Part shown: positions 26,303 through 29,155 of the stretch, in pieces | Layout: each line of letters begins with the position of its first letter | Position numbering within the stretch: the first letter of the stretch is position 1 | NCBI GenBank assembly: GCA_027487485.1 | Contig: JAIYDN010000070.1 | Span: forward strand, 1-64,000 | From: Planctomycetaceae bacterium | GTDB taxonomy: Bacteria > Planctomycetota > Planctomycetia > Pirellulales > Pirellulaceae | Direction of reading: 5' to 3' | DNA: 64,000 nt | Notes under the pieces: model-generated | What the model saw: the letters and a program-made list of their open reading frames with translations, nothing else | Told to the model about the DNA's origin: nothing | Database searches by the model: none | Made by a program: the position numbers and the translations under genes

Positions 26303-26366
26303 CGGCCCGTTTGGCAGCCTCTCTATCGCCTCGATGGCGAACTGCCAAACGGGCCGATTTATTTTT
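26303..26366 (+). terminator. Intrinsic terminator after the tatC-GNAT unit
   Basis: A perfect 15-bp inverted repeat (CGGCCCGTTTGGCAG / CTGCCAAACGGGCCG) with a 24-nt loop is followed by ATTTATTTTT. A smaller 7-bp hairpin (AAGGCAC/GTGCCTT, 26235-26256) lies just before it. Confidence 0.8.
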
Positions 26367-26388: not shown

Positions 26389-27261
26389 ATGGATATGAAT
26401 CGCTCGACCGAACCCAATCTTCCAAAATCCACTTCGGACGCAGGCTCAGCCCCTAAGCTGTTGCTGAAGTTTTCCGATACGGATTCTTTGTTTTCGCGGC
26501 CAACGATTGCGGTTGCCCCTGATCGACGTGGCCAAATTCCACTGCAGCGTTTTCAAGAATTAGAGCAAGACATCCGTAACAACCCAGCGACCGCCGAGCC
26601 TTATGTGGAGCTGGGGCAAATTTATGTCGGGCAAGAACGTTGGGGCGATGCCAAACGAGTTCTCGAATCGGGGGTGGTGGCTTGTCCTGATCATGAACCT
26701 CTTTTGGTGCTTCGCGAAGATCTGCTGTTGCAACAAGCCAATCAGTTGCTTGATCAAGCCAAAACCATTTACGCACAAGATCCCACGGAACAGCACAAAT
26801 ACGATTTAGAACAAGCGGATGTCAACTTCGCGAACGAACGCATTCGAGTTTGCCGAGATCGGTATCGACGACACCCCGAGCAAAAAGAAATCTTGATCAC
26901 GTGGGCCATCGCTTTGCGTCAATTGGCACGAATTGAAGACGCGATCGAATTGCTGAACACCGCATCGGAGGCCGCAGAACTGCGATCGCGTGCGAGCCTT
27001 CAATTGGGGATGTGCTTTCAAACATTGAATCGTCCTTTGGAGGCATTAGCCGCTTTTCGCAAAGCCGCCCTTTATCGAGATCCCCCACCGGAATTGAAGA
27101 TACGACGTCGAGCGCTCGAATTAGCATTGGATCTTGCGGAATCTGTCGGCCTGGTCGATTCATCACTGTACTACGCAAAGCACTTGTTGGAAGTTTGTGA
27201 GCAAACGAATCGTCGCGCCCTGGAGCTGCGAATCAAGAACCTTGAAACACTCGAAAAGTAG
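26389..27261 (+). CDS. TPR-repeat protein at the head of the PII-FIST cluster
   Basis: 290 residues from ATG 26389; the frame stays open upstream through the terminator, so earlier starts are unlikely. TPR-like helical pairs are visible: PATAEPYVELGQIYVGQERW, VLESGVVACPDHEP, ILITWAIALRQLARIEDAIE and QLGMCFQTLNRPLEALAAFR. No signal peptide, so probably cytoplasmic. TPR arrays mediate protein contacts. It ends 12 bp before the PII gene and is probably co-transcribed with it. Confidence 0.8.
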   Translation: MDMNRSTEPNLPKSTSDAGSAPKLLLKFSDTDSLFSRPTIAVAPDRRGQIPLQRFQELEQDIRNNPATAEPYVELGQIYVGQERWGDAKRVLESGVVACPDHEPLLVLREDLLLQQANQLLDQAKTIYAQDPTEQHKYDLEQADVNFANERIRVCRDRYRRHPEQKEILITWAIALRQLARIEDAIELLNTASEAAELRSRASLQLGMCFQTLNRPLEALAAFRKAALYRDPPPELKIRRRALELALDLAESVGLVDSSLYYAKHLLEVCEQTNRRALELRIKNLETLEK

Positions 27262-27273
27262 CTCGACACCATC

Positions 27274-27621
27274 TTGAGATTGTTAATCGCTGTCATACAA
27301 CCCAACAAGCTTCAAGCAGTTCGCGAAGCCCTCCTTAAAATTGGAGTCCAACGCATGACGGTGTTGGAATCGCAAGGGTATGGTCGTCAAAAAGGGCATA
27401 CCGCCAGCTATCGCGGTGTCGAATACAAAATCAACTTGCTGAGAAAAGTCACGCTCGAAATTTTCGTCAATGAGGACTTCCTGGAAAGGACGGTTGAGAC
27501 CATAACATCGATCTCCAAAACCGGTTCCGAAGGCTGTGTGGGTGACGGAAAGATTTTTGTTTTGCCGGTCTTGGATGCAATCACCATCGATGACGAACTA
27601 CGCGGACCCGGAGCCATTTAA
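27274..27621 (+). CDS. PII-family nitrogen regulatory protein
   Basis: 115 residues, starting at TTG 27274 with no clear Shine-Dalgarno; coupling to the upstream gene is likely. It has the T-loop GYGRQKGHTASYRGVEY with Y46 and Y51, the residues at the positions used for modification in GlnB/GlnK. The second signature, KTGSEGCVGDGKIFVLPV (about 82-99), binds ATP/ADP. PII trimers sense 2-oxoglutarate and adenylate charge and bind target proteins. Neither amtB nor glnA is adjacent. Instead it sits between a TPR gene and genes for a receiver-like and a FIST protein, with a 1-nt overlap (TAATG) to the next gene. Confidence 0.93.
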   Translation: MRLLIAVIQPNKLQAVREALLKIGVQRMTVLESQGYGRQKGHTASYRGVEYKINLLRKVTLEIFVNEDFLERTVETITSISKTGSEGCVGDGKIFVLPVLDAITIDDELRGPGAI

Positions 27622-27968
27622 TGATCCTACTACTTTCCAGCGACTTGATGTTTCAGTCGCGAATCAGCAGTACAGCTCGCGCGGCAACTAAAACCTGCCT
27701 GACCGAACGATCTGTCGCGAAACTGATCGAACGAGTGACGGAACCTGGCGCGGTCACCATGATCTTGATCGATCTGACACTGCGGACGATTGATCTGGCT
27801 TTGGAGATCCCTCAAATCAAAAGTGCGTTTCCCGATGGAAAGATTCTTGCATTTGGACCGCACGTCGATGTGGAACGACTGCAAGCAGCTGAAGATGCGG
27901 GCGCCGACTTGGTGCTGACTCGAGGGCAGATGGATCGCGATCTTGTGGCGATCCTTCAAGGAACCTAA
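27621..27968 (+). CDS. Degenerate receiver-domain protein
   Basis: 115 residues with the alternating strand-helix pattern of response-regulator receivers: ILLLSSD, VTMILIDLTL, GKILAFGP and GADLVLTRGQ. The phosphoacceptor position is kept (D51), but the N-terminal acidic pair is reduced to one Asp (D8), the Thr/Ser position reads GP, and the invariant Lys appears as Arg (R101). Normal phosphorylation is therefore doubtful; it may be a pseudo-receiver acting by protein contact. It overlaps the PII stop by 1 nt and is followed 5 bp later by the FIST gene. Confidence 0.75.
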   Translation: MILLLSSDLMFQSRISSTARAATKTCLTERSVAKLIERVTEPGAVTMILIDLTLRTIDLALEIPQIKSAFPDGKILAFGPHVDVERLQAAEDAGADLVLTRGQMDRDLVAILQGT

Positions 27969-27973
27969 TACCG

Positions 27974-29155
27974 ATGTTTGCAAGCAGCGGAATCGCCGAA
28001 CATCCTTCGCTCCATGTCGCAGTTCGCAACGCCTTTCGGGTCGCATCGGACGGACTACGTGAACCGCTCGGGTGCGTCTTTTTGTTCGTTAGTGGCGAAC
28101 GATTGGCCGAACAAGCTTCTGCAATTCGCGAGACTTTATCGGAACTAGCGCCCGACGTTCCCTTCTTCGGTTGCTCGGCGGAGAGCATCGTTGGCACAGG
28201 CCGGGAAATCGAAGGGCAAAGTGCGGCAAGTGTACTGCTTCTAAGCGGTCTAAGTCGTTCCCCTTGGATTTTTCCGATGGAATGTTTGAAAACACCGGAC
28301 GGGCCGACCGTTTTAGGATTTTCTGATGAAGCTTTGGCGGAAGCCCGCGAGGCAGGTGGACTGCTGGTCGTAGGTTGCCCGATGACCTTCTCCGTGGACA
28401 TGCTGAACGATGCTTTGGAACCTGAACGTGGTCAGCCCATCGTCCCCATTATTGGTGGATACTGCAGCAGTCAAAACTGGGGAAATCCGAACCTCTTGTT
28501 TTGCAACGATTCCATCCTAACCCGAGGTGCTGTCGGCTTGGTTCTGCCCCCGGAATTGAAGTGGAAAGCCATTGTCAGCCAAGGCTGTAGCCCTATCGGC
28601 GAACCCATGATTGTCACCGCTCTGGATGGCAACACGATTACCGGATTGGGAGGCAAGCCAGCCCTGCCGATCCTGAAAGACATGATTCAACGACTGCCCA
28701 ATCGAGAACGAGAAATGGCGATCGATGCATTGCTCATTGGCCGCGCGATTACGGAATACTCCGAAACGTTTTCGCATGGCGATTTCCTGATCCGAAACGT
28801 GCAGGGAATCGATCCCGATTGCGATGGCATCGAGGTGACGGATCGCTTCCAAGTTGGCCAGACAGTGCGCTTTCACGTTCGCGACGCCGAGGGCGCCGAT
28901 GCAGATCTCCATCAATTACTGGCCAAGATGGAGACCGAAACTGCCAATAGCAAAGCTGGGCTTCTTTTTAGCTGCAATGGACGGGGCCAACGGATGTTCC
29001 TTTCGTCGAATCATGATGCATTGGCCATCGATCGCTTTTGCCCGGGGCTACCCTTGGCGGGACTATTTGCAGCTGGTGAATTCGCGCCTGTGGGCAATCG
29101 GAACCTGACTCATGGTTTTACCGCCGTCACGGCCTTCGTGATCGAAAAGACTTAG
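27974..29155 (+). CDS. FIST-domain sensory protein (FIST_N and FIST_C)
   Basis: 393 residues. The N-terminal FIST domain (about 5-205) contains FGCSAESIVGTGREIEG and CVFLFVSGE. The C-terminal domain (about 220-385) has GLLFSCNGRGQRMF and PLAGLFAAGEFAPVG, hallmarks of FIST_C. FIST proteins are signal-input modules thought to bind small ligands such as amino acids, often linked to kinases or methyl-accepting receptors. This one stands alone, without an output domain, so output would need a partner. The upstream receiver-like and PII proteins are the obvious candidates (inference from the 5-bp gap and overlaps). Confidence 0.9.
   Translation: MFASSGIAEHPSLHVAVRNAFRVASDGLREPLGCVFLFVSGERLAEQASAIRETLSELAPDVPFFGCSAESIVGTGREIEGQSAASVLLLSGLSRSPWIFPMECLKTPDGPTVLGFSDEALAEAREAGGLLVVGCPMTFSVDMLNDALEPERGQPIVPIIGGYCSSQNWGNPNLLFCNDSILTRGAVGLVLPPELKWKAIVSQGCSPIGEPMIVTALDGNTITGLGGKPALPILKDMIQRLPNREREMAIDALLIGRAITEYSETFSHGDFLIRNVQGIDPDCDGIEVTDRFQVGQTVRFHVRDAEGADADLHQLLAKMETETANSKAGLLFSCNGRGQRMFLSSNHDALAIDRFCPGLPLAGLFAAGEFAPVGNRNLTHGFTAVTAFVIEKT

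Follow-up and report, generated by a model that had tools for sequence, protein, structure and literature searches.

A PII paralogue, a degenerate receiver and a FIST protein encoded by a conserved gene module in Pirellula

The described systems closest to the locus reported here are the PII proteins GlnB and GlnK, the NosP/NosK/NosR pathway and receiver-like proteins such as Osp. In methanogen GlnKs, T29, Q39, G87, D88, K90, Arg101' and Arg103' contact the nucleotide and Arg9 and Lys58 bind 2-oxoglutarate, as given in the accessible part of the source (PMC8395244). GlnZ-DraG, in the section of that paper available, is a precedent for an interface between PII and a partner that does not involve the T-loop (PMC4285133). 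The partners listed for GlnZ include a histidine kinase, the only one of the two with pulldown support, and NtrX; no degenerate receiver is mentioned among them in the available portion of the text (PMC7646526). NosP is a FIST-only protein that senses NO via haem and acts on a histidine kinase (PMC12570481, accessible text), while Osp is a single-domain receiver-like protein that inhibits a histidine kinase by direct protein binding (PMC9430884, accessible text). A literature search, mostly among non-subscription papers, gave no described system with the gene set reported here, in line with the original prediction, and no paper describing planctomycete PII paired with a receiver or with FIST.

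The locus lies within a 64,000-nucleotide stretch (the window; positions 1 to 64,000 of contig JAIYDN010000070.1, assembly GCA_027487485.1) of a Planctomycetaceae bacterium, genome G000 in our samples. It consists of the following features:

26303-26356, + strand: terminator-like hairpin, 15-bp arms then ATTTATTTTT, between a GNAT gene and the TPR gene
26389-27261, + strand: TPR protein, 290 aa from the ATG at 26389; Pfam TPR_2, 3.3e-07
27274-27621, + strand: PII paralogue, 115 aa, TTG start; Pfam P-II, E 4.1e-24
27621-27968, + strand: standalone degenerate receiver, 115 aa, 1-nt overlap with the PII stop codon (TAATG)
27974-29155, + strand: standalone FIST protein, 393 aa, FIST_N and FIST_C; Pfam FIST 8.7e-28, FIST_C 3e-22

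Re-reading of the window returned the same four gene positions as first described, with the same intergenic gaps of 12 nt (TPR/PII), -1 nt (PII/receiver) and 5 nt (receiver/FIST). The hairpin stands directly upstream of the TPR gene, carries a T-rich tail and has a folding energy of -39.4 kcal/mol (z -5.97); a simple scan limited to shorter loops missed it. It is likely the 5' border of a transcription unit and, judged from the sequence, the TPR, PII, receiver and FIST genes downstream of it may share one transcript. No promoter-like site was found in a simple scan of the locus.

PII, the pseudo-receiver and FIST form a conserved module in Pirellula. In a sample of 27 Pirellula genomes that includes the window genome, 19 carry FIST together with the window-type PII and eight carry neither; the receiver is found in all 27. 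The PII of 16 FIST-bearing genomes is 62-76% identical to the window PII over 114-115 residues, and two others are incomplete (G002, at a contig end, 99% over 72 residues; G011, 69% over 100 residues). The best PII in each of the eight FIST-less genomes is 45-47% identical to the window PII, and those fetched from three of the eight (G001, G012 and G019) belong to another PII class. PII, receiver and FIST are contiguous in 13 of the 19 FIST-bearing genomes (G000, G002, G004, G006, G008, G014, G015, G016, G018, G020, G021, G023 and G025), counting G002 and G014, in which a contig end cuts the PII and the FIST gene, respectively. Receiver and FIST are adjacent with PII elsewhere in five (G005, G011, G022, G024 and G026), and in G007 contig ends separate the PII-receiver pair from the FIST gene, each lying at the end of its own contig. 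In this neighbourhood analysis the expectation that the genes stay together in relatives holds for PII, receiver and FIST in Pirellula and fails for the TPR gene.

In the seven FIST-less Pirellula genomes read of the eight (L138-L141 and L143-L145), the receiver has no adjoining PII. A PTPS-like gene directly precedes it at L139, L140, L144 and L145, confirmed by Pfam for L140, and FIST-bearing relatives such as L045 have the order PTPS-PII-receiver-FIST. The seven FIST-less sequences group on a long branch of the receiver tree as one clade (97/95). The absence of both PII and FIST may therefore go back to one event, and the 19/8 split may be the product of that single event. DUF2203, MazG-like and PTPS-like genes occur upstream of the PII/receiver site at L045, L049, L139, L140, L144 and L145. 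Considered as candidates because they lie upstream of PII in several Pirellula, they are taken as neighbours of the site, not as members of the module.

Across the order Pirellulales, the widely conserved core is PII plus the pseudo-receiver, and FIST does not stand beside it. The order sample comprised 196 genomes, searched with profiles for receiver, FIST and PII. The receiver profile matches 152 of them, a few of the weakest matches (e.g. G077, G096 and G225) lying in long frames that may be other receivers, and the FIST profile matches 83, or 81 with two weak ones (G158 and G202) left out. At E 1e-45 the PII profile matches 143 of the 196, which is not a class count since the profile does not separate classes (a class-2 PII, L182, scores E 1.1e-50); its matches were used for positions only. 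In at least 73 of 150 receiver genomes PII immediately precedes the receiver in the same orientation, no more than 1 kb away, as counted from the 150 receiver rows and the best 118 of the PII rows among the matches listed. The median gap is 30 nt, and these genomes are spread over 10 families; 36 of the 73 have FIST somewhere in the genome and 37 have none. An adjacent PII was not seen among the matches listed in the other 77 receiver genomes, 22 of which are accounted for by the reduced PII described below.

The receiver is present in 80 of the 81 FIST genomes (the exception, G101, is 77% complete) and in 70 listed genomes without FIST, and so does not depend on FIST. Forty-five genomes were counted with neither, among which G063 and G220 have unlisted receiver matches. 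Fisher's test of FIST-receiver co-occurrence gives 1.6e-11, a value overstated because the genomes are related. FIST adjoins the receiver in three of the 80 order-sample genomes with both, all three Pirellula, and in none of the 77 others; the FIST link is therefore a Pirellula feature. At 19 FIST loci outside Pirellula (L050-L068), no recurrent partner was found beyond blocks common to a few loci. Fused proteins were considered as evidence of binding, and no frame with two of the domains occurs in the loci examined.

The window PII matches the P-II profile (PF00543) with 85.3 bits against a cut-off of 25, and is by profile a PII with an apparently altered effector site. It retains T29, R38, Q39, K58, GDGK and both of the T-loop tyrosines originally noted, Tyr46 and Tyr51. 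Gln occupies position 9, the C-terminus contains RGPGAI, and three residues are inserted before GDGK relative to 2gw8. T104 and D106 stand at the R101 and R103 places, leaving no Arg pair. Among 28 window-class sequences, Y46, Y51, Q39, K58 and GDGK are present in all and T29 in 27; Arg is found at the R103 place in none and at the R101 place in four, and Gln9 is invariant in the aligned members. The class does not carry the full nucleotide and 2-oxoglutarate contact set of the methanogen GlnKs. Both C-terminal Arg residues are present in 13 of 13 sequences from two other PII classes examined. On the PII tree the window class forms one group, poorly supported (39/0; 36% of bootstrap trees). 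In G000 the canonical PII is encoded elsewhere in the genome, apart from the window PII and beside a gene for a GlnD-type uridylyltransferase; in G037 the canonical PII adjoins a gene for an ammonium transporter. A second non-canonical PII class (L174, L176, L177, L179, L180, L182 and L188-L191) has the C-terminal Arg pair in 10 of 10 sequences and Tyr51 in only one of 10; some of its loci lie near a gene for an ABC transporter ATPase or a tatC-looking gene.

A reduced PII is encoded in f8, an eleventh family beside the ten with the PII-receiver pair. Missed by the first search, it was found with the receiver-adjacent PII of G061 as the query in 74 receiver genomes, and is present in 24 of the 35 f8 genomes searched (loci L194-L216 and L218). 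The reduced proteins have about 100 aa or little more, with no T-loop sequence and no GDGK (e.g. L183:5369-5668); a few carry short unrelated insertions at the T-loop and GDGK sites. Y46 and Y51 are gone in all 10 f8 sequences tabulated. Downstream of the reduced PII and in the same orientation, 22 of the 24 have the receiver, within 140 nt in 20 and at 441 and 583 nt in two; one of the 20, L215, reaches a contig end there and its receiver match is a fragment of 20 bits. At L197 and L206 the reduced PII was found to have no adjoining receiver. The P-II profile recognises all 18 aligned reduced PIIs (E 0.01 or better), and the best structural matches of the one that was modelled (pLDDT 91.1) are PII proteins. 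The f8 PIIs lie on a long branch of the PII tree. As read from these sequences, the PII-receiver pair of f8, whatever its role, operates without a T-loop.

A full receiver active site has two acidic residues, an Asp, a Thr or Ser, and a Lys. The window receiver matches Response_reg (PF00072) at E 0.0077 with 16.8 bits, below the cut-off of 30.2; the sequence thus supports the receiver call weakly, and the model carries it. A match at E 0.01 or better is found for 10 of 21 aligned receiver sequences. The model (pLDDT 95.7) has the CheY-type (beta-alpha)5 fold and its structural matches are receivers, and the product of 27621-27968 is predicted to adopt a receiver fold. An assignment as a KDPG aldolase fragment was rejected: the NCBIfam and Pfam matches are weak and partial, and the model matches receivers over its full length.

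D8, S13, D51, L52, H81 and G102 are invariant in the 21-sequence alignment, and the family has the signature FGPHV ... RGQF. The loss of the usual Lys and of one acidic residue, already noticed in the window protein, recurs in its relatives: R101 stands in for the Lys and Gly79 for the Thr/Ser in at least 90% of the 21, residues 6-7 are acidic in none, and the active site keeps Asp51 (21/21) with at most one of the two acidic residues; D8 and D51 are both present in the window receiver. Outside the alignment, L160, L231 and L235 have Glu at the D51 place. In the phylum sample of 294 genomes, 38 match the receiver profile and 34 of these 38 lie outside the order, with some of the weakest matches in long frames; no PII was found near the receiver in the stretch fetched at 12 loci outside the order. 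The same degenerate receiver family occurs with no PII nearby in other planctomycetes (L224-L235, L168 and L171). At L235 the gene before the receiver, and at L234 the gene two upstream, look by eye like lipoyl synthase genes.

The FIST protein contains FIST_N and FIST_C, and with FIST and FIST_C as the only Pfam families above cut-off, the claim that it has no output domain holds. No partner histidine kinase stands beside it: none was found among the nine window proteins around the cluster scanned with Pfam.

The genomes show the gene linkage; the complex, its ligands and its output are putative. The receiver family is distributed more widely than PII or FIST and is therefore taken as the effector, with PII and FIST as putative inputs. 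The original prediction had named the pseudo-receiver or the TPR protein as effector; the former is the better candidate, being wider than the sensors, and the latter drops out as a bystander. We propose that the module is a PII-controlled pseudo-receiver, in which the receiver effector is bound via the PII body and FIST is a later input, and give this reading a little under an even chance. The pseudo-receiver would act as a protein-binding switch without canonical phosphotransfer, probably by keeping a partner, for instance a histidine kinase, occupied. The PII trimer would bind the receiver using its core and C-terminal tail for at least part of the interface, not the T-loop alone, and would hold or release it depending on a metabolite in the altered cleft. 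FIST would bind a small ligand and act on the same receiver. That FIST reports a small ligand and PII the nitrogen or energy state was part of the original prediction, and may be so; the window PII is missing some of the residues that contact nucleotide and 2-oxoglutarate in PIIs already studied. A bolder version, which we hold tentatively and consider rather less probable than not, is that the pseudo-receiver is the dedicated target of a Pirellulales PII branch that binds it via the PII body; the f8 PII would have turned T-loop-less and nucleotide-blind while continuing to serve the pseudo-receiver, and Pirellula would have added FIST as a ligand sensor, making metabolic and ligand signals converge on a phosphorylation-independent receiver.

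Three other readings have to be weighed against the proposed one. A system of four genes in which the TPR protein is the effector would fit the 12-nt gap to PII and the terminator-like hairpin just upstream of the TPR gene. The orthologue of that gene is present as one copy each in 26 of the 27 Pirellula genomes, G002 being the one in which none was found, and it lies away from the window-type PII in all 17 other genomes that hold both, on a different contig in 16 and 0.88 Mb apart in one (G005). In G002, the nearest relative, the contig stops inside PII and the TPR-PII junction is invisible. No TPR match was found at the other PII, receiver or FIST loci searched, and neither PII nor receiver nor FIST turned up around six TPR genes (L236-L241). 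The separation in 17 of 17 genomes leads us to reject the gene as a fourth member, and we regard a TPR effector as highly improbable; at the window locus the TPR gene would be a bystander. The PII-receiver adjacency could instead be mostly inherited gene order with a loose functional meaning, e.g. shared expression. When 22 PII-receiver loci were compared pairwise within 5.5 kb, with genes called by length only, 87 of the 231 pairs had one or more other neighbours in common, and a larger block recurs at many order loci; a shared ancestral site thus explains part of the adjacency. Against this, the remaining 144 pairs share nothing detected except the PII-receiver pair itself, which persists in several contexts and with a strongly reduced PII. 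At least three genomes from the family f17, G052, G115 and G158, retain a window-class PII with no receiver match and no FIST; PII therefore has another use in f17, and these cases speak for inherited order and against a strict dependence of PII on the receiver. On balance we consider inherited order unlikely as the main explanation, though it keeps some weight.

The remaining reading resembles the NosP pathway: FIST would be a sensor of haem/NO or another ligand acting on a histidine kinase whose gene lies elsewhere, the pseudo-receiver a decoy or brake for that kinase, and PII a passenger. A standalone FIST gene beside a receiver recalls the NosP operons with NosK and NosR (PMC12570481, available text), receiver-FIST adjacency persists in the five genomes with PII elsewhere, and the receiver-like Osp inhibits a histidine kinase (PMC9430884, available text). 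This reading is nevertheless unlikely: the Pfam scan of nine window proteins revealed no kinase, PII-receiver pairs occur much more widely than receiver-FIST pairs, and FIST and the window-type PII are absent from the same eight genomes.

PII beside a pseudo-receiver, with FIST added in many Pirellula, hints at an undescribed use of common signalling parts, and would be a first indication that PII, receivers and FIST sensors are linked. The orphan receiver family, which occurs in several parts of the phylum, gains in PII a candidate partner open to testing, and f8, which has discarded the T-loop and kept the receiver neighbour, would offer a naturally occurring test of PII signalling without the T-loop.

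Compared with known systems, the window PII has in common with GlnB and GlnK the PII fold, a T-loop with Tyr51, Q39, K58 and GDGK; unlike them, it is paired with a degenerate receiver, has no Arg at the 101 and 103 places and has Gln at position 9, while the f8 PII is entirely without T-loop and GDGK. As in the NosP/NosK/NosR pathway, in the available part of its description (PMC12570481), a standalone FIST protein is encoded beside a receiver protein. The window locus differs in having PII and no kinase among the neighbours scanned, and its receiver has no output domain and an altered active site. Osp, an inhibitor of CckA, and CosR, the top VIA match, have the receiver fold in common with the window receiver, whereas the latter has PII as its gene partner, Arg in place of Lys and a signature of its own.
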